NCBI GenBank assembly: GCA_018654745.1
Contig: JABILA010000110.1
Span: forward strand, 1-64,000
Direction of reading: 5' to 3'
From: Alphaproteobacteria bacterium
GTDB lineage: Bacteria > Pseudomonadota > Alphaproteobacteria > UBA2966
Length of the DNA stretch: 64,000 nucleotides
The notes beneath the pieces are model-generated. The model searched no databases and had not been told where the DNA came from. It was given only the letters and a program-made list of their open reading frames with translations. Shown here in pieces: positions 32,508 to 56,119 of this stretch; the stretch's first letter is position 1; every line of letters begins with the position of its first letter. The position numbers were made by a program, and so were the translations under genes.

Positions 32508-33871
32508 CGGAAATAACCGGAAACCGGATCCAGCGTCTTGGCCGGTTTCTGTTTGGCGAAGCGCCGGACGACAACCCGCCCGAACGTGTGCGCTCGGCGA
32601 TTGCACAACAGCAATATGAAAGTGAAATCCTGATCGGCTGGGTGCAGCTGGCGGTCGTCCTCACTTTTGGTGTGCTCTATTCCCTGTCGCCCAAAACCTT
32701 TAATTCCGAGATCATGTTTGCGCCGGTACCATGGGCCCTCAGCCTCTACGGCGGCTTTACCTTGCTGCGTCTCATCCTTGCCTATGTCGGGCGTATCCCG
32801 GGCTGGTTCCTCGGCTTGTCGGTGGTGATCGACATGTCCTTGTTGATGGGTCTGATCTGGTCTTTTCATCTGCAGTATGATCAACCGCCGTCGTTTTTTC
32901 TGAAAGCCCCGACGCTGCTATATGTCTTTATATTTGTCGCACTCAGGGCTCTGCGCTTCGATGCATTCTATGTTGTGCTGTCCGGCATTGTGGCGAGTTT
33001 GGGTTGGCTGTTGATGGTGGGGTATGTGCTTTATTTTCAAGGCATGGACCCGTTGACGCGCGATTATGTTGAATACATGACCTCGTCGAAAATGCTGTTG
33101 GGGGCCGAGTTCGACAAGATCATTTCAATATTACTGGTGACATTGATATTGGCTGTGGCCATCGTTCGTGCCCGGCGTTTGTTGATCCGTTCTGCCATCG
33201 AGGAAACCGCCGCTGCCGATCTGTCGCGCTTCCTGCCGCCGGAACTGGCGCAACAAATTACGGAACAAAAAATCCGGGTTCAGGCCGGAGAAGGCGAGCT
33301 GACAGAAGCCGCAACCCTGACCTGCGATATTCGCGGTTTCACCCGGTATTCCATGAATTTCGATCCGCGTGAAATCATGGTGTTGCTGGCCGACTACCAG
33401 TCTCGCATGGTGCCGGTCATCAACAAACATGGCGGCGTCGTCGACAAGTTTCCGGGTGATGGCATCATGGTGATGTTCAACACCGTGACCAAATCCGAGA
33501 CCTATGCCGCTGATGCCCTGCGCTGTGTCGACGACATGTGCGCCGCCTGTATGGCTTGGGGCAAGGAACGTGAAGCAGCAGGCGAAGCGGCTATGGAACT
33601 GGTCTGGTCCGTCGCTGCCGGGCCGGTTGTTTTTGGTGCCGTCGGCGATACCACACGTTTGGAATATACTGTCATCGGCGACAGCGCAAACATGGCTGCC
33701 AAACTTGAAAAACACACCAAGGAAGAAGGCGTGCACGGCCTGACGACAAAGGAAACTTTTGATCTCGCCGTTTCCCAGGGCTACGAGCCCCCTGCCCCGC
33801 GCGCCGTTCTGGGCGACCGCAATGTCGGTGGTGTTGATGCGCCCATTGATCTGGTGACGTTGGTGTCGTGA
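32504..33871 (+). CDS. Membrane-anchored class III adenylate/guanylate cyclase
   Basis: N-terminal TM helices; LTCDIRGFTRYSMNFDPREIMVLLADYQSRM, KFPGDGIMVMFN, YTVIGDSANMAAKLEKHTKE. Confidence 0.93.
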   Translation: MTEITGNRIQRLGRFLFGEAPDDNPPERVRSAIAQQQYESEILIGWVQLAVVLTFGVLYSLSPKTFNSEIMFAPVPWALSLYGGFTLLRLILAYVGRIPGWFLGLSVVIDMSLLMGLIWSFHLQYDQPPSFFLKAPTLLYVFIFVALRALRFDAFYVVLSGIVASLGWLLMVGYVLYFQGMDPLTRDYVEYMTSSKMLLGAEFDKIISILLVTLILAVAIVRARRLLIRSAIEETAAADLSRFLPPELAQQITEQKIRVQAGEGELTEAATLTCDIRGFTRYSMNFDPREIMVLLADYQSRMVPVINKHGGVVDKFPGDGIMVMFNTVTKSETYAADALRCVDDMCAACMAWGKEREAAGEAAMELVWSVAAGPVVFGAVGDTTRLEYTVIGDSANMAAKLEKHTKEEGVHGLTTKETFDLAVSQGYEPPAPRAVLGDRNVGGVDAPIDLVTLVS

Positions 33872-39270: not shown

Positions 39271-40461
39271 TTACTTATACGGATCAGCTGCGTCTCTCAG
39301 GCCATCGCCGAAGAAATTGAAGGCCAGTACAACCAGGATCACCGGGGCGACTGGCAGCATCAGCCATGGATACAATGCTACAGCGTTGATGTTCTGGGCT
39401 TCGTTTAGCAACACGCCCCAGCTGGTAATTGGTGGACGCAGGCCTAACCCCAGGAAACTCAAAGCGGTCTCACCCAGGATCATCGACGGCACTGACAAGG
39501 TGGCCGAAGCGATCAGGTGGCTCATGAAGGATGGCACCATGTGACGACCAATAATGCGGGACGGTTTGGCACCCATCAGCTCGGCGGCGGAGGCGAAATC
39601 TTCCTCGCGTAAAGCCATGAACTTGCCACGCACCGCCCGGGCAAGACCGGTCCAGTCCAGCAGTCCCAGAATGATCGTGATGCCAAAGTAAATCAGCACC
39701 GGTGACCATGTCACCGGCAAGGCAGCGGACAGCGCCATCCACAATGGCAGTTCCGGAAACGAGCGTATGATTTCGATCAGGCGCTGGGCCAGAGGATCAA
39801 ACCAGCCGCCATAATATCCGGCAAAACCGCCAATAATAATACCCAATATGAAACTGACGGTAATACCGATCAGGCCCACGGTCAGGGATATTCGGGTGCC
39901 ATAGACAATGCGTGAGAACATGTCACGCCCCAGGCGGTCCGTTCCGAACAGGAACAGGGTGCCACGTTTTGCCGGGCAGGCCAGATGGAAGTCGGCCTTG
40001 AACAGATTCATGAACTCGTACTTGCTGCCGCTGCAGAAGAAACGAATGGGCTGAACCTTTTTGTGGTTGGGCTCGTAGAACCGTTTCATGGTTTTACGAT
40101 CAAGCTTCAGCTTGTAGCCATAAACAAACGGGCCGACAAACTCACCTTCATGAAACACGTGGATGGCTTGCGGCGGCGCATAGATAAAGCGCCGGTTCTT
40201 TTCACTCAGTTCGTAGGGGGCGATGACCTCACTCAATAATGCTGACGCATACATCAGCAGCAAGATAATGCCCGACGCCACGGCGATTTTATGGCGCTTG
40301 AACTTCCACCACATCATCGTCCATTGCGACGCCATGTAATAGCGTTCCTGCTCCGGCGTCAGTTTCTCGACGGAATAGGGATCAAACGGTTCCTGGCTGA
40401 CATAGTGCTCAAGCGGCCGGGCATCATTTTTGGAGGCATCATTTTTGCTGATGTCGGTCAT
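39271..40461 (-). CDS. Oligopeptide-type ABC transporter permease (DppC/OppC-like)
   Basis: FLFGTDRLGRDMFSRIVYGTRISLTVGLIG; RAVRGKFMALREEDFASAAELMGAKPSRIIGRHMVP. Confidence 0.93.
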   Translation of the reverse strand: MTDISKNDASKNDARPLEHYVSQEPFDPYSVEKLTPEQERYYMASQWTMMWWKFKRHKIAVASGIILLLMYASALLSEVIAPYELSEKNRRFIYAPPQAIHVFHEGEFVGPFVYGYKLKLDRKTMKRFYEPNHKKVQPIRFFCSGSKYEFMNLFKADFHLACPAKRGTLFLFGTDRLGRDMFSRIVYGTRISLTVGLIGITVSFILGIIIGGFAGYYGGWFDPLAQRLIEIIRSFPELPLWMALSAALPVTWSPVLIYFGITIILGLLDWTGLARAVRGKFMALREEDFASAAELMGAKPSRIIGRHMVPSFMSHLIASATLSVPSMILGETALSFLGLGLRPPITSWGVLLNEAQNINAVALYPWLMLPVAPVILVVLAFNFFGDGLRDAADPYK

Positions 40462-41483
40462 CGTGTGTTACCCCCGGTGAGACGAATACGGGGGTCGAGC
40501 ATGGCCAGGGCCAGATCAGAGAGGAACATACCAAACACGGTCAGGGCGGCCAGGAACATCAGGAATGATCCGGCAAGATATTGATCCTGTGAGCGCAAGG
40601 CTTCCACCAGCATGGGGCCGGTGGTCGGCAGCGACAGCACGACAGAAACAATGGCTGCACCGGAAATCACCTGCGGCAGCATGTTGCCAATATCGGCAAT
40701 GAACGGGTTCAGGGCCATGCGCAAAGGATACTTCATCAGCACCTTGAAGGGGTGCAGGCCCTTGGCGCGCCCGGTGGTGACATATTGCTTTTGTAGTTCG
40801 TCCAGCAGGTTGGCGCGCAAACGCCGGATCATACCTGCCGTGCCCGAGGTGCCGATGACAACAACGGGAATCCATAGATGCTCAAGTACGGACATCAATT
40901 TGGCAAAAGACCACGGCTCTTCCAGATATTGCGGGTCCATCAGACCACCGATCGACGTCCCGAAGGTGACATTGGCGTAATACAGCAATACCAGGGCCAG
41001 CAGGAAGTTGGGTGTCGCCAGGCCAATAAAGCCAAGGAAAGTCAGGGAATGATCCCCGATGCTGTACTGGTGTGTCGCCGAATAAACCCCGATGGGAAAG
41101 GAGACGATCCAGGTGAAGATAATGGTGGTGAAGGACACCAGAAAAGACAGGAACAACCGGTCGCCGACGACATCGCCAACAGGCAGGTTATATTCGAAGG
41201 AATATCCAAGGTCGCCTTGCAGCAGGCCTTCAAAACCGTTGTTGCCTGGCCAGATGCCAACCCAGACGGCATATTGTTCGACCATGGGCCGGTCCAGGCC
41301 ATATTGCTCGCGCAGGAATTCAATTTTCTCCAGCGCTGCTGTTTCGCCCTGGGCTTTCAGCTCCTGGATCTGGTTCGACAGATAATCACCGGGCGGCAAC
41401 TGGATAATAATGAACACAAGCACACTGATCGCCAACAAAGTCGGGATCATGATCAGCATCCGGTGCACAATATAGGTGAACAT
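40458..41483 (-). CDS. Oligopeptide-type ABC transporter permease (DppB/OppB-like)
   Basis: MFTYIVHRMLIMIPTLLAISVLVFIIIQLPPGDYL; RLRANLLDELQKQYVTTGRAKGLHPFKVLMKY. Confidence 0.93.
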   Translation of the reverse strand: MFTYIVHRMLIMIPTLLAISVLVFIIIQLPPGDYLSNQIQELKAQGETAALEKIEFLREQYGLDRPMVEQYAVWVGIWPGNNGFEGLLQGDLGYSFEYNLPVGDVVGDRLFLSFLVSFTTIIFTWIVSFPIGVYSATHQYSIGDHSLTFLGFIGLATPNFLLALVLLYYANVTFGTSIGGLMDPQYLEEPWSFAKLMSVLEHLWIPVVVIGTSGTAGMIRRLRANLLDELQKQYVTTGRAKGLHPFKVLMKYPLRMALNPFIADIGNMLPQVISGAAIVSVVLSLPTTGPMLVEALRSQDQYLAGSFLMFLAALTVFGMFLSDLALAMLDPRIRLTGGNTR

Positions 41484-41504
41484 ATCCTGTCTTACCTCAA
41501 ACCA

Positions 41505-43409
41505 TCACTTTTCGTAATAAAATGTATCAGGACGGTAAATGCCGAACATGGCACCCGGGTCCCAGTTATAAACCGCTTCGGCCGGAATGTTTCTCAGCTT
41601 GCCTGAGGCCACAACCGGCTGCATGACGCCCGAGACAATACCAATGGAAAAGGTCTCGTCTGCATGGATTTGCAACATTTGCTGCCAGATGTCGGCGCGG
41701 GTTGCATCGTCTGTCGAGACCAGCCATTGACCATTCAGGTCTGCCAGTTCCTTTGCCTTGGGCAAATCCGGTGCTTCTCCGGCCTGACCCTTGGTCTCAA
41801 AAAACTGTCCCCACTTTGGCCATTGCAGACTTTGCTGACTGGTCGGCGCCAGTTCCGCCGGATTCATACCAGCAGTGGGCAGGCCATTTTCAAAGCCACC
41901 CCAAATAGAGATCAGGGTCTCGCCCGAAAAAATACGGTTGCGGAAAACTTCCCGCTGGGATGGTTTGGTGAACAGCTTGATGCCAACCTCGGCCCAGCCA
42001 TCATGGACCAATTCCAGCACATCGGTCTGTTCGGTGTCTTCACCGGCGGTTTCGACAATGATGTTCATGGGCCGGCCATCAGGCAACAACCGGATGCCGT
42101 CTTCATCGCGTTTGTCTAACCCCAGGGCGTCCAGCATATCATTGGCTTTGGCTGGATCGTATTCGGTCCATTTCAGGGCGTAGTCTTCCTTGAATAAGGG
42201 ACTTTCTGGCAGGGCCGTGTTGTTGTGTTCCAGCGCCAGACCGAAGTAAAGCGATTCGTTGATCAACTCGCGATCCACAGACAGCGACAGGGCATTGCGG
42301 AATTTTGTCGTCCGCAGCAATTTGCGCCAGACCGGATCGTTGACGTTCAGGTTAGGATACAGTGCCAGATGCGCACCCTTGGCCGAGCGCCAGAGATTAA
42401 CCTTGTAGCCCACGCGTTCTTCTGAATCTTTCAGGAAAGTGAAATCCTTGAAGGCAAGGTTCCGGGCCTGCAGATCGGATTCGCCAGCACCGGCCTTGGC
42501 CGGGATCAGTTTGCCGTCAGACTGGTTCATGACGATCTTGTTGATGTAGGGAAGCTGGCGGCCTTCTTCATCGATGCGGTGATAGAAGGGATTGCGCCGA
42601 CCGGTAAAGCGGGTTGCCGGTGGCCGCGTGATGTTGGCCCAGGGCTGCAGGGTTGGCTGATCCGGATTGTTGAACTTGTACATATTGTCCAGCCGGTTAT
42701 GCAGGGCCGCCCAGTTGCGCTGGCCCTCTTCCTTGGCCATTTTATTCAGCGCAGTTTCGTCTGAATATTTGGCATGAAATTTTTTCAGATAATCGCTGGG
42801 GCGATAAACAAACAGCGGTGAGGCACCAGCCAGACGCGAGAGGAAAAACGGATTGGGCGTGTCCCAGGTGTAGCGAACCGTAACCTCGTCCAGCACTTCG
42901 AACATCGGCAATTTGCCATCGGCCAGCATGGCCACGGGTGGGCCGGACGGGGAAATTGATTTGTTGTTGGCGACGTCTTCCCACCAATAGCGGAAATCTT
43001 CCGACGTAAAGGCATCGCCATTTGACCACTTGTGGCCCTTGCGCAAAGTGAACGTAAAGATACGTCCCTCTTCGACTTTGTATTCTTTCAGGATGTCGGC
43101 GTGCATTTCAAAATTGTGGTCATAACCCATCAGACGGGCATAGCCCCAGACCACCAGATAGCGAACATCTTTTGATCGTCCGATCAGGGTGCGGAGGTTG
43201 CCGCCGTGCTGGCCAATGCTGCGCTCACCTGAAAATTTGACGATTTTGGGTTCAGCAGGCAGACGTTCTGCGATCGGTGGGATTTTGCCCTTGGCGATCA
43301 TCTTCTTGAAATAGGGCGTTTCGACCGGCGACAGTGCCAGCGCCTGGCTGGCGACCAAAACAGAAAGGCCTGCCGCGACGACGGCTGTCTTTTTCAATAG
43401 TCGGATCAT
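41505..43409 (-). CDS. ABC transporter substrate-binding protein, family 5
   Basis: Signal peptide MIRLLKKTAVVAAGLSVLVASQALA; FTFTLRKGHKWSNGDAFTSEDFRYWWED; start refined to 43409. Confidence 0.93.
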   Translation of the reverse strand: MIRLLKKTAVVAAGLSVLVASQALALSPVETPYFKKMIAKGKIPPIAERLPAEPKIVKFSGERSIGQHGGNLRTLIGRSKDVRYLVVWGYARLMGYDHNFEMHADILKEYKVEEGRIFTFTLRKGHKWSNGDAFTSEDFRYWWEDVANNKSISPSGPPVAMLADGKLPMFEVLDEVTVRYTWDTPNPFFLSRLAGASPLFVYRPSDYLKKFHAKYSDETALNKMAKEEGQRNWAALHNRLDNMYKFNNPDQPTLQPWANITRPPATRFTGRRNPFYHRIDEEGRQLPYINKIVMNQSDGKLIPAKAGAGESDLQARNLAFKDFTFLKDSEERVGYKVNLWRSAKGAHLALYPNLNVNDPVWRKLLRTTKFRNALSLSVDRELINESLYFGLALEHNNTALPESPLFKEDYALKWTEYDPAKANDMLDALGLDKRDEDGIRLLPDGRPMNIIVETAGEDTEQTDVLELVHDGWAEVGIKLFTKPSQREVFRNRIFSGETLISIWGGFENGLPTAGMNPAELAPTSQQSLQWPKWGQFFETKGQAGEAPDLPKAKELADLNGQWLVSTDDATRADIWQQMLQIHADETFSIGIVSGVMQPVVASGKLRNIPAEAVYNWDPGAMFGIYRPDTFYYEK

Positions 43410-45304
43410 GATCTCAAAAGCTCCTTCGCACTCGCACGGTCGCTTTCCACGGCGGCCCGGACAAAGTGTCCTTCGCCAATGTCGACCAGATGCGGTTTGA
43501 TGTCTCCGGTTTGTGTAAACGGGGCGTCCCATGCAGAGGGATCAGATGTTTTGCCTTCCATCAACGCCGTCAGGTCCAGCCTTGAATCCGGGTCTGTTTT
43601 TGGCACGGCAGACAGCAACGCCCTGGTATAGGGATGCACCGGGTTGGCAAACAGTTCTTCGCGCGGTGCCATTTCGACCAGGCGTCCGGCGCACATCACG
43701 GCGATCCGGTCGGCGATATAATCCACCACGGCCAGATTGTGCGAAATAAACAGATAGGTCAGCCCCAGCTTTTCCTGCAGGTCTTTCATCAGGTTCAACA
43801 CCTGGGCCTGGATCGATACATCCAGGGCCGAGACAGGTTCGTCACAAATCAGCAAGGAAGGTCGCAAGGCCAGGGCACGGGCGATGCCGATACGCTGGCG
43901 TTGTCCGCCGGAAAAACTGTGCGGGTAGCGACGCAGGAAGCTGACATTCAAGCCAACCAGTTGCACCAGTTCCTTGACCTTTGCGAAGCGCTCTTCTTCC
44001 GTGCCGATATTATGAATGACCAGCGGCTCGCTGATGATATCAAACACCGTCATGCGTGGGTTCAGTGATCCGAAAGGGTCCTGGAAGATATATTGAACCT
44101 TGCGGCGATAGGCCAGCAAATCGGCCCCCTTCAAGGAGCGCACATCGATATCTTCACCGCGATCATTCAGTCTGATTTCACCGGCATCGGCACTGAAGGC
44201 GCGCATGACCATTTTACTGGCGGTGGTTTTGCCGCAACCGCTTTCGCCGACCAGGCCCAGGCATTCGCCGCGTTCGATATGAAAAGAGACATCATCAACA
44301 GCCAGCTGAGAACCGCCCGGTTTGCTGCCGAACAAGGACGTCTTGCGGGTCGAGAAACTTTTTGTCAGGCCTTCGACCCTCAGCAAGGGATGTTTGCTGT
44401 CTTGCTCTGGCTCGGCCCGGCGCTCTTCCATTAAATGCGCTGTGTCGGTCTTGATCTCGCGGATCGGGATCAGACGTTCGCCGGGCTTCATGCCAAAGCG
44501 GGGCACGGCGCGTAGCAGGGCTTTCAGATAAGGGTGTTGCGGGTCACGGAAAATGTCGTGCAGGGTGCCGCTTTCCATGACCTTGCCGTGATACATGACA
44601 ACAATCTCGTCGGCCATGTTGGCGACCACACCCAGATCGTGGGTGATCATCAGGACGGCCATACCCAGCTTGTCGCGCAGGTCGTTCATCAGTTTCAGAA
44701 TCTGGGCCTGAATGGTGACGTCGAGGGCGGTCGTCGGCTCATCTGCAATTAACAGGGCCGGGCGACAAATCAGGGCCATGGCGATCATGGCGCGTTGGCG
44801 CAGGCCGCCGGACAATTCAAAGGGATATTTATGTACCGACTGGACCGGATCCGGAAAGCCAACCAGCTCCAGAATTTCAATGCTGCGTTCCAGGGCCTGG
44901 GCGGCATCGCATTTTGAATGCAGCTCGCAGGCTTCGCCGATCTGGTTGCCGATGGTGTGCAGCGGCGACAGCGAGGTCATGGGTTCCTGGAAAATTATGG
45001 AAATGCGGCCGCCGCGCAGATTGCGCATGGCACTGCCATCGGGACTCAATTTGGCGATGTCGACGAAATTGCCAGGCTTGTCGGGATCAAAAAAGACGAT
45101 TTCGCCGTTGGTGATATGCGCCGGTTTGGGCAGGATGCCCATGATGGCCTGACTGATGACGGTCTTGCCCGACCCGGATTCGCCAACGATGGCTACGGTT
45201 TTGCCTTTGGGCACACGAAAGGACACGCCCTCGACGGCTTTGACCACGCCTTCGGGCACGCGGAATTCGATCTTCAGATCACGGACAAGAAGTACATTGC
45301 TCAT
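43406..45304 (-). CDS. Fused DppD-DppF-like ABC transporter ATP-binding protein
   Basis: Two full NBDs: GESGSGKTVISQAIMG...LSGGLRQRAMIAMAL and GESGCGKTTASKMVMR...FSGGQRQRIGIARAL. Confidence 0.95.
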   Translation of the reverse strand: MSNVLLVRDLKIEFRVPEGVVKAVEGVSFRVPKGKTVAIVGESGSGKTVISQAIMGILPKPAHITNGEIVFFDPDKPGNFVDIAKLSPDGSAMRNLRGGRISIIFQEPMTSLSPLHTIGNQIGEACELHSKCDAAQALERSIEILELVGFPDPVQSVHKYPFELSGGLRQRAMIAMALICRPALLIADEPTTALDVTIQAQILKLMNDLRDKLGMAVLMITHDLGVVANMADEIVVMYHGKVMESGTLHDIFRDPQHPYLKALLRAVPRFGMKPGERLIPIREIKTDTAHLMEERRAEPEQDSKHPLLRVEGLTKSFSTRKTSLFGSKPGGSQLAVDDVSFHIERGECLGLVGESGCGKTTASKMVMRAFSADAGEIRLNDRGEDIDVRSLKGADLLAYRRKVQYIFQDPFGSLNPRMTVFDIISEPLVIHNIGTEEERFAKVKELVQLVGLNVSFLRRYPHSFSGGQRQRIGIARALALRPSLLICDEPVSALDVSIQAQVLNLMKDLQEKLGLTYLFISHNLAVVDYIADRIAVMCAGRLVEMAPREELFANPVHPYTRALLSAVPKTDPDSRLDLTALMEGKTSDPSAWDAPFTQTGDIKPHLVDIGEGHFVRAAVESDRASAKELLRS

Positions 45305-45876
45305 CGAAGGTGTGCGTCTCCGTAATCTTTTTCTGCAGGTGCCAGTTCTGCGGGTGCAAGTTCTGCAGGTGCCAGGCCCATCGCCTTCAGGTTTTCCAAA
45401 GTTGTTGTTTCAAGGTTCAATCCGTTTATACCTGCAATTCCTGTCGTTTCGGCAACAATCTGTTCAAAGCCGTCAATGGCGCTGTCCAGAGACAATTTTT
45501 CACCTTCACCGCCCAGCTGCAGCTGCATCCAGCCTGCCTCACGGTCCCGTCGTGTTGAAAAGTACCTTAACTTCAAAACTTGCATATTGCGCCACGAAAT
45601 CGACTTTTTCGGCGCAAAACGACCTGCGGTCCTGATGCCCTTGTCACAAAGCATTACCGTCGTGGCCTGTCGGATCATCGTGCGAAAGCCGAATATCAGA
45701 AAAACAATCACCAACAAAAACAGAATAACCTTCAAAACATCGACCAGATCGACCAGTAGCAATGGTCCTGCGGTCAGTATCAAACCAATTGATGTTCGGA
45801 ATAGATCGCCTGCCAGCGCACGCATCGGGTATCGATGTCGCGACTTGACCTGCCAATCGTCCCCTCCCACCATCAT
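45301..45876 (-). CDS. Hypothetical two-TM protein with PH-like C-terminal region
   Basis: ORF 191 aa, TM stretch LLLVDLVDVLKVILFLLVIVFLIFGF; 4-bp overlaps with both neighbours. Confidence 0.7.
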   Translation of the reverse strand: MMVGGDDWQVKSRHRYPMRALAGDLFRTSIGLILTAGPLLLVDLVDVLKVILFLLVIVFLIFGFRTMIRQATTVMLCDKGIRTAGRFAPKKSISWRNMQVLKLRYFSTRRDREAGWMQLQLGGEGEKLSLDSAIDGFEQIVAETTGIAGINGLNLETTTLENLKAMGLAPAELAPAELAPAEKDYGDAHLR

Positions 45877-46679
45877 GAAAGCTTAAAGGCTTCATGCGCA
45901 TCAAGCCAGCGTACAGAAGGCTGTTCCGCTGTCCAGGCCGCAAATTTTTCCAAAAAGGCCCATGTTTTCGCATCCTGGACCAGATGATGGGTTAAAATGC
46001 CGGTTATTTCCCCCTGATCGGCGGATAAACCCGCTGATCTTCCGCGTTTAGTCACCAAATGCTCTGTCAGCAGGTCCAATGTCGCGACTTCTCCCAAAAA
46101 TGTCTTGTCGGCTTTCCAGTTTATGGGGTCGACATGGCAATTGTTAATATGCAGGCCGGCATGCACAGAGTTCGGATCCCGGTCTTTGTAGGTCGACAAG
46201 CCGACAAAACCGGTTTCCGTTAAAATCGGGATCAAGGCGTCGGGGATCCGGTTCCAGGGCGGCACCAATACCGGTAAGGCGCGGTCGGGGAATGCATTAT
46301 TCAATAAGGCCAGGGCGCGAACAAGGTCGGCGGTCATATCCGCCAGGGGTCGCTGACTGGTGAATTCTGCTTTCTTTTCGTCTGCAAGTGCCCGGTTCCG
46401 ATGGTCCAGGCCATGAACCAGCAGACAGGTATCCGCTGCAAACAGGTCCGTATTATGGGCCAGGGTTTCCGACATATTTGCCGGAATGACGGCCAGGGAA
46501 AGAGGAATATCGTATCGCTGACTGATACCTGTCAGGCGTGCCAGTTCTGGTGTTGGCTCAATGACATCGTCGTCCCGCCACCATAATGCGACTTCCCGGC
46601 CTGCGATCTGCCATTTTTCAACTTCATCGGAAAGGCGTTGCCAGGCCGTCTGAATATCTGTGGAGGCCGTCGACATCAA
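45873..46679 (-). CDS. Polysaccharide deacetylase-like protein
   Basis: VALWWRDDDVIEPTPELARL; CLLVHGLDHRNRAL; VLVPPWNRIPDALIPILTETGFVGLSTY. Confidence 0.82.
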   Translation of the reverse strand: MMSTASTDIQTAWQRLSDEVEKWQIAGREVALWWRDDDVIEPTPELARLTGISQRYDIPLSLAVIPANMSETLAHNTDLFAADTCLLVHGLDHRNRALADEKKAEFTSQRPLADMTADLVRALALLNNAFPDRALPVLVPPWNRIPDALIPILTETGFVGLSTYKDRDPNSVHAGLHINNCHVDPINWKADKTFLGEVATLDLLTEHLVTKRGRSAGLSADQGEITGILTHHLVQDAKTWAFLEKFAAWTAEQPSVRWLDAHEAFKLS

Positions 46680-47836
46680 TCGTCCCAGGTCACAGCGTCA
46701 GCCCAATCATTGACCAGTGTTGCCGATCTCCTGGCCCCGCCCGTATCGATAAAGGCCCCTGATGGCGGCCCGTTGACGGCCTTGTCGACAGCGGCGGCGA
46801 GAATGTCGGGCGACAAGGTCGCTTCGTCAACAACATGCAAAACACCTTGTTCGGACAGCAACCGCGCTCGCAAGGTCTGTTCCGTCTCAATACCACCGGC
46901 ATAGGGCACAACCACAGCCCGGGCCCCGGCGTGCAGGGTTTCCATGATCGTGTTGTAGCCGCCCTGGCTTATGGAAACAGCGCAATTGGCCAGCAGACTG
47001 GTAAAATCGGGCCGCGCACGTTCCACCACGACGCCATTGGGAGCCAGTGATTTCAGGTCTGAAAATTCCGCTTCGAGAACGGTGTGGCCGACCAGCAATC
47101 GCCAGACCCGGTCATTCAGGCCGCTAACGGATCTGGCCTGCATTGCAGTGCGCAACAACTGGTCGCCAACTGCGCCGCCACCGGCAGAAACGATCACTTC
47201 ACCAAATCCGGGGCTGTCTGGGCCGCCTTTTATGCCAGAAGTATCAACGACATAGCCGGTATAGCGTGCTTTGTCGCCAAGTCGTTCCGCATGTGGAAAG
47301 GTTTGATCAAAGGAAATCAGATTGGGGTCGCCGTGCATCATCACGTGATCGAAATAGCGATTGATCAGATCAATCATCTCGTCGTTGCGGCCCGGCTTTT
47401 TTTGCGCCACCAGAATATCCCGGACCGAACAAATCACAGCTGGTGGTTTGGCCGCAGATGTTGCGGCGTCCAGCAAGGGCAGCAGTTCAAACCGCATTTG
47501 GCGGCGACCAAAGGGGAACAGCTCGAACATCAGGATATGTGGCCGGGTTTCCTGCCACGCCGTCATCAATGCGTCGGCACGGCGTTGTCGCCAGGCGTCG
47601 TCTATGGGCTGATCGCTTTCGTCGACCAGTTCCTTGAAATACAAGTCGACCGCGCGCACCGGGGGCAATTGTTTTAATGTTGCGCCGCCGATATCCAGAC
47701 CGGGTACGGGACTGCCACCTGAGACCAGCGTGACCTCCAGACCAGCGGCATCCATGGCACGCACCAGGGTTGCCGCTCGTCGCAGATGGCCAATGCCCAG
47801 AAGGTGTTGCACATAAAAGAGGACGCGGTGTGTCAT
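46676..47836 (-). CDS. MurG/COG4671-like glycosyltransferase
   Basis: RVLFYVQHLLGIGHLRRAATLVRAM; SISQGGYNTIMETLHAGARAVVVPYAG. Confidence 0.87.
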   Translation of the reverse strand: MTHRVLFYVQHLLGIGHLRRAATLVRAMDAAGLEVTLVSGGSPVPGLDIGGATLKQLPPVRAVDLYFKELVDESDQPIDDAWRQRRADALMTAWQETRPHILMFELFPFGRRQMRFELLPLLDAATSAAKPPAVICSVRDILVAQKKPGRNDEMIDLINRYFDHVMMHGDPNLISFDQTFPHAERLGDKARYTGYVVDTSGIKGGPDSPGFGEVIVSAGGGAVGDQLLRTAMQARSVSGLNDRVWRLLVGHTVLEAEFSDLKSLAPNGVVVERARPDFTSLLANCAVSISQGGYNTIMETLHAGARAVVVPYAGGIETEQTLRARLLSEQGVLHVVDEATLSPDILAAAVDKAVNGPPSGAFIDTGGARRSATLVNDWADAVTWDD

Positions 47837-47876: not shown

Positions 47877-48491
47877 TCAGGACAAATTAGTCAGTGGTTC
47901 ACCGACAGGCACATTCATTTTCCACGGCCTGGGGCTGCCATCGCGGTCCAGCTCAAAGATATGGGCGCTAGTCCAATCCAGCTTTACCGGTGCCTTGCCC
48001 ATCATGTCCCAGTTATAAGCCAATGCCATGACGGCCCGGATCACCCCTTTATGGCAAACCGCCGTTATGCCAGGCCGGGTTCCAGCGATATCGGACATCC
48101 AGGATTTCAGGCGCTGCTGCACATCACGCGGGCTTTCGCCGCCTGCGGGCCGAAAATCCAGACCCTTGTCTTCATTCTCCTGCAATGCCGGGCCAAGTTC
48201 TGCGCGAAGGTCGGCAAGTGTGCGACCCTCCCAGTCTCCCCAGTTCATTTCCATCAGGGCTGGCTCAAGCGGTGGGGCAAAGCCGCACAGCAAACCGGCT
48301 GTGGTACGCGCGCGCTTCAAGGGGCTGGACATCCAGTAAAAACCAGCCAGTTCAGGGTTCAGGGCGACACCAATATGATCCCTGATTTGCAGATATCCGG
48401 CGTCCGACAAGGGAATGTCCGTTTGCCCCTGCATACGGACTTCATCATTCCAGGCTGTGCGCCCGTGTCTGATCAGGGCAAGCCGGGTCAT
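47877..48491 (-). CDS. Histidine phosphatase (phosphoglycerate mutase) family protein
   Basis: LALIRHGRTAWNDEVRMQGQTDIPLSDAG (RHG motif). Confidence 0.92.
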   Translation of the reverse strand: MTRLALIRHGRTAWNDEVRMQGQTDIPLSDAGYLQIRDHIGVALNPELAGFYWMSSPLKRARTTAGLLCGFAPPLEPALMEMNWGDWEGRTLADLRAELGPALQENEDKGLDFRPAGGESPRDVQQRLKSWMSDIAGTRPGITAVCHKGVIRAVMALAYNWDMMGKAPVKLDWTSAHIFELDRDGSPRPWKMNVPVGEPLTNLS

Positions 48492-49654
48492 TTTGCGTGT
48501 TCCTTGTTCGATTTGGCCATTTCCAGACCCCTGTTCAGGGTTGCCGCGGCCTGTTGCAGGGATCGCTCGTTTGCAACGAATTCACCTGCCGCAGTGCCCA
48601 TATCAGTGCGCATGTCCCTGTCATCGATCAACTTGCTGACGGCCGACGCGAAAGCCTCCGGATTATCAGGGGGCACCAGCGTTGCCGTGGTTCCGCCCCG
48701 GACAACGTCAGGCACACCCCTGGAATCTCCGGCAACGACCGGCAGTCCTGCTGCTTGCGCTTCCAGCATGGCCATACCGTATGCTTCACCAACCGCTGGC
48801 CAGACACATATGTCTGCCGCGATAAGAATACGGGCAACCTCCGGTCCTGGCTGCTCACCGGCGAAAATAACGTGGTTTTTCAGCTTGTTTCGGCTCTGAA
48901 ACAGATTTTTTGTCTCCGCGGCATATTCACCGTCGCCGACAATTACAAGCTGCCAGCTTGTCGACACCGATATCAGCTCCAGGCTTTTGGCCAATTGTTC
49001 ATAGGAATGATATTTGTCACCTTTTCGCATCATGCCAACAGCGACCAATAGAACATCTGCTGTTGCGCCAAATGACTGGTTCAGGAAATTTCGGGCATCT
49101 GTTTTGTCAGAACGGTCGTATTGAAAAGACGTCGCATCTAGAAAGGGCGGTAAATAGACCAGTCGGTCAGGTGATGCCAAAACGGGTTCAACGCAGGCCA
49201 TATCGTGTCGCGTCAAACAAAACGCACAGTCAGCCTTTTTCAAGCTGGCTTCAACGCTCTCATGGGCCAGTTTCCAGGGACCGTTTGCACGTTTTGGCGC
49301 ATGACTTGGCTCGGCGACGACATAGGGAATACCCAGTGCGTCACTGACAGCTGGACCCAGATGATCAGGTGCCTTGTAATATTGGTGATAGGTGAACCAT
49401 ACGCTCGGTCTGTTTTGTTCGGGCTGTAAAAGACAGGTCTCAATTATGTGGTGTGCTTCCACCCGCCCGGCGGCAAACATACCCTCTTGCAGGGTCGGAT
49501 CTCCGGTGCCTTCATAGCTTCTGAAATCGGACGCAAGGGCAACTTTGTGGCCTGCAAGTTCCAGGGTCGTCATGAGCAATCTGGCCATGCGCCGGTCCCC
49601 TGACGGCACAGGATGCGTTGGTGCTTTCAGGGGGGCATAGAATGAAATACGCAC
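48488..49654 (-). CDS. Glycosyltransferase family 4 protein
   Basis: ADICVWPAVGEAYGMAMLEAQAAGLPVVAGDSRGVPDVV. Confidence 0.9.
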   Translation of the reverse strand: MRISFYAPLKAPTHPVPSGDRRMARLLMTTLELAGHKVALASDFRSYEGTGDPTLQEGMFAAGRVEAHHIIETCLLQPEQNRPSVWFTYHQYYKAPDHLGPAVSDALGIPYVVAEPSHAPKRANGPWKLAHESVEASLKKADCAFCLTRHDMACVEPVLASPDRLVYLPPFLDATSFQYDRSDKTDARNFLNQSFGATADVLLVAVGMMRKGDKYHSYEQLAKSLELISVSTSWQLVIVGDGEYAAETKNLFQSRNKLKNHVIFAGEQPGPEVARILIAADICVWPAVGEAYGMAMLEAQAAGLPVVAGDSRGVPDVVRGGTTATLVPPDNPEAFASAVSKLIDDRDMRTDMGTAAGEFVANERSLQQAAATLNRGLEMAKSNKEHAK

Positions 49655-49660
49655 GTTCGT

Positions 49661-50893
49661 TTACCTGATTTCAGATTCTGAAACTGTACGATTGAACAGA
49701 TTCAATAATTGCTCGATACCCTTGTCCAGCTTGAACTCCGCCCGTACGTTTTTCATGCCGGCGTCAGCCATCGATTGCCGCAGCTCCGGATTACGGCACA
49801 AGGTTTCCAACGCAGCCGTCATTTCGGAAGGGGATTCCGGGGGCACTAACAAACCCGTCCGTTCGTTCGTTATCAGCTCGGGGATTGCTGAAACGGTCGT
49901 ACTGATACAGGCCACCCCCAGGCTCTGGGCTTCCATCAAAACGTTGGGTAAACCGTCCCTGTCACCGTCGTTTGCAATCCGGCTGGCAAGCACAAAAATG
50001 TCTGCCTCACGATAGGCAGCGATGACATCTTCTTGGGACTTTGCGCCCATCCAGTTCGTCCGTTCGGAGATGCCTTTTTGGCTGGCGAGGGCTTTCAACT
50101 TGTCCCGCAAGGGACCTCCGCCGATATGCACAAATCGCCAGTTGATGTCTTTTGGCAGGTCGGCCAGGGCCGATAAAAGTACGTCATATCCTTTTTTGAC
50201 AACGGCCCGTCCGACGGACAGGATTACGACAGGTTTTTCAGCTGAATCAGTGATTTCCGACCGTTCGGTTTTGGGAAATCGTTTAAAATCAAGACCATGA
50301 TAGACCAGGTGTACTTTTTCGGCAGGCGCCAGCGTATCAAGATAATCACGATTGGCGCCGGTACAGGTGACCGCCCACGAACAGTCGTCCAGTTTTTCAG
50401 ATAACTCCCATTTCGGAAGCGTCCAGATATCTTTGGCGTGGGCGGAAACGCTCCACGGAATTTCCTTCATCAAAGCCGCATATCGCGTCACAGACCCGGG
50501 TGTGTGAATAAAATGGGCATATAAATGCCTGATTTCTGACGGCATTTCTGTTGCCAAAACCATTGCCTGGCCGAAACGACGAACGCGATTGGGCGTTGGA
50601 TCACGAAACAGATCCTGAAACCAGATTTTCCAGGTTTTTTTGAAACCGGGCAGCTTGCGTGCTGCTAACCAGGCTTTCAGGACCCGTCCGGGTTCCTGAT
50701 AAAGATATTCTGGCAGGTAGCTGACGGGGGCCGTTATCTTTTTATTCAGATCGTGAATGGCGGTGTCTGTGGGGTGGCGCAAACTGTAGATCTGCAGATC
50801 CATACCGGCTTGCTGCAGGGCCAGAATTTCCTGTGCGATGAACGTTTCGGAGAGGCGCGGATAGCCCTTCAGAACAATACCAACCTTGCCCAT
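49661..50893 (-). CDS. Glycosyltransferase family 4 protein
   Basis: MGKVGIVLKGYPRLSETFIAQEILAL; ADIFVLASRIANDGDRDGLPNVLMEAQSLGVACISTTVSAIPELI. Confidence 0.92.
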   Translation of the reverse strand: MGKVGIVLKGYPRLSETFIAQEILALQQAGMDLQIYSLRHPTDTAIHDLNKKITAPVSYLPEYLYQEPGRVLKAWLAARKLPGFKKTWKIWFQDLFRDPTPNRVRRFGQAMVLATEMPSEIRHLYAHFIHTPGSVTRYAALMKEIPWSVSAHAKDIWTLPKWELSEKLDDCSWAVTCTGANRDYLDTLAPAEKVHLVYHGLDFKRFPKTERSEITDSAEKPVVILSVGRAVVKKGYDVLLSALADLPKDINWRFVHIGGGPLRDKLKALASQKGISERTNWMGAKSQEDVIAAYREADIFVLASRIANDGDRDGLPNVLMEAQSLGVACISTTVSAIPELITNERTGLLVPPESPSEMTAALETLCRNPELRQSMADAGMKNVRAEFKLDKGIEQLLNLFNRTVSESEIR

Positions 50894-50982: not shown

Positions 50983-52248
50983 TCAGACCCGCTTGGCCAG
51001 TATCGTGGGGCTTTCGACATCTCGTTTACGGGCGTGCCGGTCAAGCCAGGGCGCGATCAGGCGACGTACATTCACAAGGCCTTCCAGCAGTCCCGGTACA
51101 ACAACGTCAGAAGGTTTGCTCTGACGTGGCATATGGCGCAAGGCGCTGGCCATAACTTCAGGATCATATTTGCCATCATCTTCCAGCATCCGGATCAGCC
51201 CCAGGCTTTCAGCCTTTGAGGCCCGGATAAACTGCTCCAGCCTTGGCACCTTGCGGGGAACGATGATGGCCTTTTTGTCGAGAGAGAGGATTTCACAAAA
51301 CGTGTTGTAGCCGCCCATGGCGACAATACCGACAGCATTGTCCTCGAGGCTTTCCATGTGCTGTTCAAAGGTTATGGCTTCAACCCTGTCCAGTTGTGAC
51401 GCTCTATTCAGGAAATCAGTCTGCAATTCCGTTTGCATGAACGGCCCCAGGACCAGCAAGGCTGGATAGGGCAGCATCGGATCTGTCTCGTAAGCACGCA
51501 AGACCCACTCGATCAATCCGTCACCATCGCCTCCACCCCCGGTGGTCACCAGCAAATAAGGCTTTTTGGTAATTTCCGGTGGTGGTGTAGTGTTGGGTGA
51601 GCTCGGGACACGGCGCTGCAAATAGCCGGTATAAGTCACTTTCTTGAGGACACTTTCCGGCAAATCAAGTGCGCCCAGGGGCTCGCAGATTTGCGGCAAC
51701 CCATAGACCCAGATATCGTCATAAAGGTTTTTCAGGGCTGGCAGAACCTTCTTGCGCTTCCATTCCGGGACCAGCAAGGCCGGTTCGTCCAGAACATCGC
51801 GCAAGCCCAGTACAAGCCGCGTTCCGCGCTTTTTCAGCATTTTCAGAGTGGGTAGAACCTCACCGCGCAAGCCCGATGGCTCCTTGTCGACAATAAAGAC
51901 GTCGGGATCAAAAATTGCCGCCGTGTGCTTGATGATGGAGGTTCGGATGGACAATGTTTCATCCAGATCGATCAGCAAATTAAGCGCCGTATAGTCGCCA
52001 TTGCGAAGTTTGATGACGCCAGGGATGCGCACAAAGTCCACACGGGCGCGAAAATCAAAGCTGCCGATAATGGGAGAGCCTGACAGGATCAGGACAGAGA
52101 GATTCTTGTTGCTCTCAACCATCGAATGGGCAAGCGTCAGCGCCCGCCTGAGGTGCCCCAGGCCGAAGGTATCGTGACTATATATAAGGACTCTGGCCCC
52201 GCGCCCACTTCCGGCGTCGCTCCCCTGCCCCTCAACTTCGTTCAGCAT
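50983..52248 (-). CDS. MurG/COG4671-like glycosyltransferase (paralogue of 46676-47836)
   Basis: ARVLIYSHDTFGLGHLRRALTLAHSM; GIVAMGGYNTFCEILSLDKKAIIVPR. Confidence 0.87.
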   Translation of the reverse strand: MLNEVEGQGSDAGSGRGARVLIYSHDTFGLGHLRRALTLAHSMVESNKNLSVLILSGSPIIGSFDFRARVDFVRIPGVIKLRNGDYTALNLLIDLDETLSIRTSIIKHTAAIFDPDVFIVDKEPSGLRGEVLPTLKMLKKRGTRLVLGLRDVLDEPALLVPEWKRKKVLPALKNLYDDIWVYGLPQICEPLGALDLPESVLKKVTYTGYLQRRVPSSPNTTPPPEITKKPYLLVTTGGGGDGDGLIEWVLRAYETDPMLPYPALLVLGPFMQTELQTDFLNRASQLDRVEAITFEQHMESLEDNAVGIVAMGGYNTFCEILSLDKKAIIVPRKVPRLEQFIRASKAESLGLIRMLEDDGKYDPEVMASALRHMPRQSKPSDVVVPGLLEGLVNVRRLIAPWLDRHARKRDVESPTILAKRV

Positions 52249-52411: not shown

Positions 52412-55069
52412 ATGGGCATGGAACCGACAATCTATAAATATTTGCTGAAATACAGCAAAAAACAGCAGATTTGGCTGACGGTGATGGCGGTGTTGTCATT
52501 TCCGTTTCTGTATCTGTTTTATGAACTGCCAAAGATGATCATCAATGATGCCATTCAGGGCGATCCTGGTGACTTCCCGGTGGAGCTTTTTGGTGTCGAA
52601 CTGGAACACGTGCCCTATCTGGTCGTGCTCTGTGTCGGCTTTCTGCTTCTGGTGGTCGTCAACCAGGCGTTCAAATATTACATCAATGTTTATCGCGGCC
52701 TGACCGGTGAGCGCATGTTGCGCCGTCTTCGCTATGAACTGTTTGGCCGGGTCCTGCGTTTCCCGCTGCCAACATTCAGAAATATGTCCCAGGGTGAAAT
52801 CATTCCCATGGTGACAGCAGAGGTCGAACCCCTGGGCGGATTTGTTGGGGAGGCTTTTTCCCTGCCGGCTTTCCAGGGCGGCACCTTGCTGGTTATTCTA
52901 AGCTTCCTGTTTTATCAAAACTGGATCATGGCTGTTGCCGCAGTCGCCTTGTACCCGCTGCAGCTCTACATCATTCCGCGCCTGCAAAGCAAAGTGAACC
53001 TGCTGGGCAAAGAGCGCGTCAAACTGGTCCGCAGCCTGTCGGACCGCATCGGCGAAAAAGTACAGGGCGTTGCAGAAATACATGCCCACGATACGTCGCA
53101 GCTGGAACGCGCTCGTTTCTCCGCACGTCTTGGCGAAATCTTTGTTGTTCGCTATCAGATCTATCGCAAAAAGTTCTTCATCAAATTCCTGAATAACTTT
53201 ATCCAGCAGATGGGCCCCTTCTTCTTCTATTCCATTGGTGGCTATCTGGTGATCACGGGTGGTCTGGAAATCGGCACCCTGGTTGCTGCGATTGCGGCGC
53301 ACAAGGATCTTGGCGCGCCGTGGAAAGAATTGCTCGGCTTCTATCAGCGCCAGCAGGATGCTCGCATCAAATACGACACGGTCATTACCCAGTTTGATCC
53401 GCCCGGCATGCGCACGGTTGAGCATCAGGAAAGCGATCCTTCCGGCGACGAAACATTTTCATCGACGCTGGCAATCTCCGGCCTGACACTTTCTGATGAT
53501 CAGGGCGAATCAATTGTTAATTCGGTTTCAGCCTCCCTTGACCTGCCGTCAAAGATTGCCATCGTTGGCCGTCCTTCCAGCGGCAAGGAAGAAATGGGCC
53601 AGCTGCTTGCCCGGCTTCTTGATCCGACAAAAGGCAAGATTTCCTATGACGACCGTGAACTGGAAGACTTGCCGGAAGGCGTTACTGGACGGCGGGTTTC
53701 CTTTGTTGGCCAGCAAGGTTTCATCTTCAATGCCACGCTCAGTGAAAACCTTTACTACGGCCTGAAGCACAGACCGCAGAAGGCTCTCGAGCGTGAAGGC
53801 GACGCCGCCGATGATTATAAGGAATTTGTTGAAGAGTCAGAACTGTCCGGTAACTCTGTACTTGATTCAGATGCAGACTGGACCGACTTTGCTGCATCAG
53901 GTGCTGAAAACCTTGAAGCCTTGCGCCATGAAGGATTGCGCGCCCTCAAGATTGTTGGTCTTGATGGCGACGTCTACCAGTTTGGTTTGCGCGGTACAAT
54001 CAATCCGAAATTAACACCGGATCTCGCCAACAAAATTCTGACAGCCCGGCACAGTCTACGGGATCGTCTGGCGGAACCAGATGTTGCCGACCTGATCGAA
54101 ACCTTTGATCAGGAAAAATATAATCACAATGCTTCCGTTGCAGAAAATCTGTTGTTCGGCAATGTCGTCGGCGACACCTTCGATATGGAAGCCCTTGGAT
54201 CAAACGCCCATGTCGTCTCCGTGCTGGATCAAATTGGCCTGACCGAACAGATGATCGAGATCGGTTATGCGGCGGCCTCTACGATGGCTGAAATTTTTGC
54301 CGACGTGCCGTCGGATCATGAACTGTTTCAGCAATATGCCTTTATCTCGGCAGATGAGTTACAGGATTTCCAGGCGCTGTTGACGCGCGTTGATCGTGAA
54401 AAGCTGGTTGAGGCCCGTGACGAAGATCGCACAGCATTGCTTTCCTTGCCGTTTAAACTGGTTCCAGCCCGACATCGTCTGGGCTTGATTGACGATGCGA
54501 TCATGGAAAAAATTCTCGAAGGTCGAAGGATGTTCCGTGAAACCCTGCCTGAGGACGTAGCGTCTTCTGTCGAATTTTTCGACGCAGAGTTTTACAACAG
54601 TGCTTCCAACCTGCAGGACAACATCCTGTTCGGCAAGGTTGCCTACGGCGTACCAAAAGCAGCGGAGCGCATTGGTGAGCTGATTTCAGAAGTGATCGAA
54701 ACAGAAGGTCTGTATGATTCGGTGGCCGAAGTCGGTATGAGTTATGATGCCGGTATTGGCGGATCACGATTGTCAGGTGCCCAGCGTCAGAAGCTGGCGA
54801 TTGCACGTGCTATCGTAAAACGACCGGATGTCTTGATATTGTCCGAATCCACGGCGGCTCTGGATTCGGCTTCCCAGAACGAGATTATGGAAAACATTCT
54901 GGGTGAATTTACCGACCGTACCCTGATCTGGGTATTGCATCGGGCCGATCTGGCCGTGCAGTTTGATCAGGTTCTGGTATTTGACCGGGGGGCAATTGCC
55001 GAAAAAGGAACAGTGTCGTCGCTGGATCGCGAGGGCACATTATTTAAGGAATTGGCAAGCGATGGGTGA
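52412..55069 (+). CDS. ABC exporter-like protein with degenerate, insertion-bearing nucleotide-binding domain
   Basis: N-terminal ABC TM domain; degenerate Walker A GRPSSGKEE; Q-loop FVGQQGFIFNATLSENLYYG; signature LSGAQRQKLAIARA; degenerate Walker B DVLILSESTAALDS; H-loop LIWVLHR. Confidence 0.9.
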   Translation: MGMEPTIYKYLLKYSKKQQIWLTVMAVLSFPFLYLFYELPKMIINDAIQGDPGDFPVELFGVELEHVPYLVVLCVGFLLLVVVNQAFKYYINVYRGLTGERMLRRLRYELFGRVLRFPLPTFRNMSQGEIIPMVTAEVEPLGGFVGEAFSLPAFQGGTLLVILSFLFYQNWIMAVAAVALYPLQLYIIPRLQSKVNLLGKERVKLVRSLSDRIGEKVQGVAEIHAHDTSQLERARFSARLGEIFVVRYQIYRKKFFIKFLNNFIQQMGPFFFYSIGGYLVITGGLEIGTLVAAIAAHKDLGAPWKELLGFYQRQQDARIKYDTVITQFDPPGMRTVEHQESDPSGDETFSSTLAISGLTLSDDQGESIVNSVSASLDLPSKIAIVGRPSSGKEEMGQLLARLLDPTKGKISYDDRELEDLPEGVTGRRVSFVGQQGFIFNATLSENLYYGLKHRPQKALEREGDAADDYKEFVEESELSGNSVLDSDADWTDFAASGAENLEALRHEGLRALKIVGLDGDVYQFGLRGTINPKLTPDLANKILTARHSLRDRLAEPDVADLIETFDQEKYNHNASVAENLLFGNVVGDTFDMEALGSNAHVVSVLDQIGLTEQMIEIGYAAASTMAEIFADVPSDHELFQQYAFISADELQDFQALLTRVDREKLVEARDEDRTALLSLPFKLVPARHRLGLIDDAIMEKILEGRRMFRETLPEDVASSVEFFDAEFYNSASNLQDNILFGKVAYGVPKAAERIGELISEVIETEGLYDSVAEVGMSYDAGIGGSRLSGAQRQKLAIARAIVKRPDVLILSESTAALDSASQNEIMENILGEFTDRTLIWVLHRADLAVQFDQVLVFDRGAIAEKGTVSSLDREGTLFKELASDG

Positions 55070-55117: not shown

Positions 55118-55567
55118 GTGAGTATCAACGAAGAAGTTGAGCTGTTACGGCAGATCCCGTTGTTCGCGAAGATCGAGCCGTCGAAGCTGAAATTGTTGGC
55201 GTTTACAAGTGAGCGTCTCAAATTCAAGTCTGATGAGGAGTTGTTTCATCAGGGCGATATTGGTGACTCGGCCTACATCGTGATCGGCGGTCAGGCAGAC
55301 GTTATTTTGTCGACAGATCGCGGTGACGTTGTCGTTTCGACTGTAAAACGAAATGATATCGTCGGCGAAGTGGCTATTCTTTGTGACGTTCCCAGAACGG
55401 CTTCAGTCAAGGCCAAGGAAGACCTTGAAGTGCTGAAAATATCCAAGGACCTGTTTTTTCGCATGATCAGCGAATTTCCCCAGATGTCTGTGGAAATCAT
55501 GCGCGAGCTTGCCGCACGCCTCGACCGGACCACGGATCAGCTGATGCGGGCCGTCAGCCAGAACTGA
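55118..55567 (+). CDS. Cyclic nucleotide-binding domain protein (cNMP domain only)
   Basis: LLRQIPLFAKIEPSKLKLLAFTSERL; LFHQGDIGDSAYIVIGGQADVIL; VGEVAILCDVPRTASVKA; GTG start. Confidence 0.92.
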   Translation: MSINEEVELLRQIPLFAKIEPSKLKLLAFTSERLKFKSDEELFHQGDIGDSAYIVIGGQADVILSTDRGDVVVSTVKRNDIVGEVAILCDVPRTASVKAKEDLEVLKISKDLFFRMISEFPQMSVEIMRELAARLDRTTDQLMRAVSQN

Positions 55568-55630: not shown

Positions 55631-56119
55631 GTGAGCCGTCTCGACAGCGCCATTCGCCGACTGGAAGCCCAGCGGGACTGCCTCGCACTTGCCGCAGAAC
55701 TGATTAAAAACCTGACAGGCCCGGTTCTTGAGCTTGGGCTTGGTAATGGCCGCACCTTTGATCACCTCAGATCGCTGATGCCCGGGCGGGAAATATTTGT
55801 ATTTGATCGCCAGCTTGCAGCGCATCCCGACTGCATCCCGGACGCCAAACACGCAATTGTGGGTGATTTTACCGAAACCTTGCCGACGGCACTGGCCAGA
55901 ACAGGTGAGCTGGCCGTGCTGGCCCATTGTGACACCGGCAGTGGTGATCGTGCCGCAACCAGCGCCCAGGCGTCGTGGCTGGCGGAACCCGTCAACAATT
56001 TGGTGTGCAGCGGGGGCATTATTGTATCGGATCAGGCTTTTGAATATCCGGGCTGGATTGCAGTGGATTTGCCTGAAACCGTCTCACCCGGGCGATATTT
56101 TATCTATCGCAAGTCCTGA
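55631..56119 (+). CDS. Class I SAM-dependent methyltransferase-like protein
   Basis: GPVLELGLGNGRTFDHLRSLMPGREIFVFDRQLAAHPDCIP; GTG start. Confidence 0.78.
   Translation: MSRLDSAIRRLEAQRDCLALAAELIKNLTGPVLELGLGNGRTFDHLRSLMPGREIFVFDRQLAAHPDCIPDAKHAIVGDFTETLPTALARTGELAVLAHCDTGSGDRAATSAQASWLAEPVNNLVCSGGIIVSDQAFEYPGWIAVDLPETVSPGRYFIYRKS

Follow-up and report, generated by a model that had tools for sequence, protein, structure and literature searches.

A family of alphaproteobacterial ABC exporter-fold proteins with a degenerate nucleotide site, a tripled helical subdomain and a cNMP-binding partner

Described ABC systems and the window protein

ABC exporters are the textbook case of ATP-driven transport, and a degenerate nucleotide site in such proteins is normally paired with a working one. 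The ABC fold is used for regulation, not for pumping, in SUR. In CFTR it is used for gating, again not for pumping (PMC7756269). TM287/288, TmrAB and TAP are exporters with degenerate Walker and signature residues in one NBD and the catalytic second site in the partner (PMC7756269), and loss of the catalytic Glu is the usual hallmark of the degenerate site in a heterodimer (PMC7544095). The PCAT exporter HetC of Nostoc is governed by an N-terminal cNMP-type domain that binds ppGpp, with no protection by cAMP, and the protein carries a C39 peptidase and needs an ATPase residue (PMC10986499). MsbA-type (type IV-fold) homodimeric exporters join a six-helix ABC_membrane domain to one NBD, in which the nucleotide site is intact and about 60 residues separate the Q-loop from the signature.

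We analysed a window of 64,000 nucleotides (positions 1 to 64,000 of contig JABILA010000110.1 from an Alphaproteobacteria bacterium), in which an open reading frame without internal stops encodes a half-size ABC exporter-fold protein (Table 1). Like the MsbA-type exporters, this window protein has an ABC_membrane domain (PF00664, E 9.6e-22; six long helices in the AF2 model) followed by a single NBD, in which Pfam recognises the ABC_tran fold as two stretches (PF00005, E 1.6e-15). Foldseek searches with the whole protein matched ABC exporters (E about 1e-17 to 1e-19), including PCAT1, MsbA and TmrAB at a TMt of about 0.64; all structure models are of single chains. The best NCBIfam profile was MsbA (TIGR02203), at 215.8 bits against a curated cut-off of 602, and none of the equivalogs among the best 25 scored above its cut-off. 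Unlike the MsbA-type exporters, the window protein has lost the nucleotide site and has 354 residues between Q-loop and signature.

The family to which this protein belongs shares with TM287/288, TmrAB and TAP the degenerate Walker and signature residues, but it has no linked partner gene and the nucleotide contacts of the single chain are all affected. With HetC it shares the association of an ABC exporter with a cNMP-type domain; in the family, however, this domain is encoded by a separate gene or fused C-terminally and the motor is degenerate, and Pfam scans of the window protein and of four homologues gave no C39 peptidase match. CFTR and SUR differ from the family in being eukaryotic, full-length proteins that still bind ATP and carry unrelated regulatory domains. 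In the literature searched, mostly without subscription journals, we found neither a description of the family nor biochemical or genetic data on any member, and we regard it as an undescribed family across Alphaproteobacteria.

Table 1. Coordinates of the features in the window; locus counts refer to 29 loci with long flanks, member counts to the non-redundant set described in the text.
Feature	Coordinates	Strand	Evidence or remark
Class III adenylate/guanylate cyclase domain protein	32477-33868	+	PF00211; about 20 kb from the cNMP partner
Opp-type importer, whole	39271-45304	-	ATPase in 24/29 loci
Opp-type permeases (two)	40458-41483, 39271-40461	-	
Opp-type large solute-binding protein (SBP), 675 aa	41505-43532	-	Rhizobium SBP orthologue, E 1e-216
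Opp-type double ATPase	43406-45304	-	
Predicted membrane protein, 191 aa	45301-45876	-	No Pfam match; 24/29 clusters
Possible polysaccharide-deacetylase-like protein	45873-46679	-	By eye, weak DUF2334 match; 21/29 loci
Glycosyltransferase, GT28-like	46676-47836	-	26/29 loci; Rhizobium orthologue
Histidine phosphatase	47877-48491	-	27/29 loci
GT4 glycosyltransferase	48488-49654	-	26/29 loci
GT4 glycosyltransferase	49661-50893	-	27/29 loci; Rhizobium orthologue
Glycosyltransferase, GT28-like C-terminal domain, divergent neighbour	50983-52248	-	25/29 loci; Rhizobium orthologue, E 8e-131
Putative pseudo-ATPase ABC exporter, 885 aa	52412-55069	+	ORF; Pfam ABC_membrane 43-294, split ABC_tran; AF2 pLDDT 87.8, pTM 0.82
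Transmembrane domain, residues 43-294	52538-53293	+	Pfam PF00664 match; helices in AF2 model
Asp362 at A-loop aromatic position	53495-53497	+	Tyr at the aligned position in five control exporters
Degenerate Walker A GRPSSGKEE, residues 386-394	53567-53593	+	Residue 393 is E/D in 83/120 rows
Repeat 1: Q-loop (Q434) and helical subdomain copy 1, residues 425-536	53684-54019	+	hhalign to repeat 2
Repeat 2: helical subdomain copy 2, residues 537-640	54020-54331	+	hhalign to repeat 3
Helical linker between repeats 2 and 3, residues 641-689	54332-54478	+	AF2 helices; no similarity to repeats
Repeat 3: helical subdomain copy 3, running into signature, residues 690-785	54479-54766	+	Ordinary exporter profiles resume here
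Signature region RLSGAQRQK, residues 786-794	54767-54793	+	QRQK >80% conserved
Degenerate Walker B and D-loop DVLILSESTAALDS, residues 806-819	54827-54868	+	Walker B Asp in 15/115 members
H-loop His843	54938-54940	+	Present in window copy; 35/115 members
Stand-alone cNMP-binding domain protein, 149 aa	55118-55567	+	Pfam cNMP_binding, 5.6e-20
Phosphate-binding cassette GEVAILCDVPRTA of cNMP partner	55364-55402	+	Conserved in aligned separate partners
SAM methyltransferase (Methyltransf_17), frequent neighbour	55631-56119	+	16/29 loci

Distribution of the family and loss of the nucleotide site

With the insertion alone as query, matches were obtained in 147 of 387 alphaproteobacterial genomes (91 of 263 by genus; genomes sampled by search, loci weighted to closer relatives), mostly as one copy per genome and in stop-free frames of about 900-1100 aa. 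In a phylum-wide sample the family was confined to the same class among the matches listed, and the few matches in metagenome bins labelled Beta- or Gammaproteobacteria or SAR324 may reflect mis-binning. Members occur in Sneathiella, Azospirillum, Inquilinus, Reyranella, Nisaea, Oceanibacterium, Minwuia and a Kordiimonadales strain, and on replicons of Rhizobium, Sinorhizobium, Ensifer, Phyllobacterium, Mesorhizobium, Ruegeria and Sulfitobacter. They carry the plain annotation 'ABC transporter ATP-binding protein', and their partners are sometimes labelled 'Crp/Fnr transcriptional regulator'. On pSymB of Sinorhizobium meliloti 1021 the homologue occupies 841723-844432 (841.7-844.4 kb), a position that rules out identity with MsbA2 (SMb21191), the msbA2 operon being near 938 kb (PMC3687685). 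One paper calls SMb20813 an msbA homologue, and this gene may be the family member of S. meliloti. Comparison of the window copy with that of a congener (91% identity) yielded an omega of 0.033 overall and 0.02-0.034 per domain, insertion included, which only indicates strong purifying selection because dS exceeds 1. The best conserved part of the family is the transmembrane domain, with many invariant residues. Among unusual members, a 1386-aa protein (L069:3347-7504) has an N-terminal extension of about 500 residues without a Pfam match, and the very divergent L042 (G238, genome family f60), which has a spacing of about 320 residues, a long tree branch and no detected cNMP domain, may be a separate paralogue.

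A sequence-only reading had described a degenerate Walker A, a Walker B with Ser in place of Asp, an LSGAQ signature and a retained Q-loop Gln and H-loop His. We recovered the Walker A at the same position with the same sequence, and the signature (residues 787-791), Q434 and H843 were likewise found. The Walker B, LILSE with Ser at the Asp811 position, agreed in its substitution but had been ended too early, at 54850, short of the end of the Walker B/D-loop segment. That reading had missed Asp362 of the A-loop, the change of the third Walker A Gly to Ser389, that of the second signature Gly to Ala, and the repeat nature of the insertion. In all, the window copy retains 6 of 11 NBD features and thus lacks the functional set of Walker A, Walker B, A-loop, Q-loop, H-loop and LSGGQ. 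Since Lys392, Gln434, Glu812 and His843 are kept, weak ATP binding or hydrolysis may be possible in this copy, judging from its residues.

Degeneracy is a trait of the family. Because the architecture and the substitutions recur in about 150 homologues, the motif pattern of the window protein is not due to chance, and the search for homologues with canonical Walker motifs in the same locus, which would have marked the window copy as merely decayed, found none with a canonical catalytic set. We scored features in 115 members that are non-redundant at 85% identity. The A-loop aromatic is absent from every one of them, its position being Asp or Glu in 113 of 120 alignment rows. The Walker A Lys remains in 72 members (63%) and the Walker A Ser/Thr in 11 (10%), with Glu or Asp following the Lys/Arg in about 70% of the alignment rows; the Q-loop Gln is present in 33 (29%), the two signature Gly in 10 and 13, the Walker B Asp in 13% and the H-loop His in 30%. 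The catalytic Glu is retained in 71 members. Not one of the 115 combines Lys, Ser/Thr, Gln, Asp, Glu and His, and the commonest feature count is 3 of 11 (maximum 7), versus 10-11 for five control exporters of the same genome. Two elements are still largely conserved, the D-loop Leu-Asp and the QRQK that follows the signature, which argues that the fold and perhaps the dimer interface are retained. Two members, L055 and L056, have a Walker A GKS and a Walker B DE without A-loop aromatic, Q-loop Gln or His, and could be early-branching or partial reversions.

On the basis of these residue counts the family likely does not hydrolyse ATP, and the earlier suggestion of impaired hydrolysis thus gains strong support at the level of sequence. 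The companion suggestion that the protein binds ATP has become doubtful, since the residue that would stack on adenine is missing throughout.

The insertion and the cNMP-binding partner

The predicted gap of about 350 residues was borne out by measurement (354 from Q434 to S788, versus about 60 in exporters of the same genome), and its length is nearly fixed at 354-355 across the family. The insertion repeats the Q-loop-to-signature segment twice more. In the window protein, NATLSENLYYG after the Q-loop recurs as NASVAENLLFG and as SNLQDNILFG, and each repeat holds one invariant Asn (N446, N579 and N737). Comparison by hhalign aligned repeat 2 with repeat 3 over 81 columns (prob 99, E 1e-18) and repeat 1 with repeat 2 (prob 94, E 1e-7), and profile comparison matched repeat 1 with repeat 3 (prob 88); other segments of the protein stayed below prob 3, save one that overlaps repeat 1. 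BLAST self-comparison of the window protein did not detect the repeats. Ordinary exporters match repeat 1 best, as expected if the Q-loop-to-signature segment was copied twice. Modelled alone with AlphaFold, the insertion reached a pLDDT of 92.7, and it had no usable structural match in the PDB (best E 0.33).

The gene downstream of the window ORF encodes a cNMP-binding protein in which Pfam found no DNA-binding domain. Among the 95 loci with sufficient flank, a cNMP domain is adjacent in 74 and C-terminally fused in 14, at least 88 in total, and three of the seven loci counted without one (L032, L033 and L035) have a cNMP-like C-terminal tail, confirmed by sequence search for L032 and L033. 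The phosphate-binding cassette, Gly-Glu ... Arg-Thr/Ser-Ala, is near invariant in the 75 separate partners aligned (Gly 75/75, Glu 73/75, Arg 75/75, Thr/Ser 73/75). The fused members form one clade (support 99), so that fusion or fission happened once and counts once as evidence. A divergent cNMP-fused branch (L031-L034, genome family f20) is present in two or three copies in some genomes, and the NBD of L031 is no longer recognised by Pfam. The conserved association with a cNMP domain, adjacent or fused, supports the earlier proposal of a regulated protein, and control of the ABC protein by a cNMP ligand is likely. On the precedent of the ppGpp-binding HetC domain, the ligand should not be assumed to be a cyclic nucleotide.

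The gene cluster and candidate functions

The genes on the other side of the window ORF are conserved as a cluster (Table 1), and this conserved content makes it look like glycan synthesis coupled to an Opp-type importer. An orthologous cluster together with a class III cyclase is found on a replicon of Rhizobium etli and also in R. leguminosarum, S. meliloti and S. medicae, the last with an additional polysaccharide lyase, and a class III cyclase lies beside the family gene in eight further loci; the distant cyclase of the window may be a coincidence. The Opp-type SBP is unusually large and accompanies the glycosyltransferase cluster all the way from the window organism to Rhizobium; it could bind a fragment of a glycan or of a peptide. 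From the gene neighbourhood, a glycan or lipid-linked saccharide is a plausible substrate of the ABC protein, and the flippase role once suggested for the window protein is plausible on the same grounds.

We consider it somewhat probable that the family represents pseudo-ATPase ABC proteins, controlled by a cyclic-nucleotide-type ligand rather than by ATP hydrolysis, that act in surface-glycan assembly or translocation. Such a protein would be an exporter-fold homodimer whose NBD has turned into a pseudo-ATPase, with fold, D-loop Leu-Asp and post-signature residues kept and the nucleotide site lost; a homodimer is plausible because no half-exporter is linked. In ordinary exporters the helical subdomain between Q-loop and signature couples the NBD to the membrane domain. 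In the family, conformational control would pass from ATP hydrolysis to a cyclic-nucleotide-type ligand. The cNMP domain, whether adjacent or fused, would bind this ligand, and the signal would be relayed via the tripled helical subdomain; gating through the extra subdomains is speculative. The ABC protein would then serve a lipid-linked or surface glycan as its translocator, flippase or scaffold under ligand control, and movement of the glycan would be passive or otherwise driven. More tentatively, the ATP motor may have been replaced outright by a second messenger, the cNMP ligand gating or driving passage of a lipid-linked glycan through the triplicated subdomain without ATP hydrolysis.

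It is unlikely that the family supplies the degenerate half of a heterodimeric exporter whose canonical half, encoded elsewhere, hydrolyses ATP, as the sequence-only reading had allowed. Heterodimers with one degenerate site are common (PMC7756269) and the window genome has several canonical half-exporters, but none of 149 loci has a second half-exporter near the family gene, only Opp-type ATPases being found beside it. Moreover, a single chain has lost its Walker contacts as well as those of the signature, which would impair each of the two composite sites in a heterodimer, and the catalytic Glu (Glu812 in the window protein) tends to be kept, in contrast to the Walker B Asp and the Walker A Ser/Thr. 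Improbable, too, is a protein that transports nothing and instead, as a receptor or scaffold in the membrane, detects a lipid-linked intermediate together with the cNMP ligand and regulates the importer or the glycan machinery. Loss of the motor, conservation of the sensor domain, co-conservation of the Opp-type importer and glycosyltransferases, and the examples of CFTR and SUR, an ABC channel and a channel regulator rather than pumps, speak for such a role, but the best-conserved part being a transmembrane domain with many invariant residues fits a substrate path at least as well. We give little credence to an ATP-driven exporter with an unconventional site, in which the usual contacts would be replaced by the Glu or Asp that follows the Walker A Lys, together with the Glu and His that remain: Lys, Gln, Glu and His are present in the window copy and the residue after Lys/Arg is specifically acidic in most members, but a catalytic design should be conserved in the family, and here the aromatic is gone throughout and Gln, His and the Walker A Lys vary. 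A decayed copy or sequencing artefact, which the degenerate motifs of the window sequence might suggest, is ruled out by the same architecture in open frames of 147 of 387 genomes, the low omega (0.03) and substitutions common to the family.

The reading as a ligand-controlled pseudo-ATPase concerns a conserved, mostly single-copy family in which the nucleotide site is lost, the membrane domain is tightly selected and a second-messenger sensor adjoins. Its members occur in tractable organisms, including S. meliloti (pSymB), Rhizobium and Azospirillum, within a poorly characterised glycan cluster. If this reading is true, the family would pose directly the question of what an ABC fold can do without ATP.
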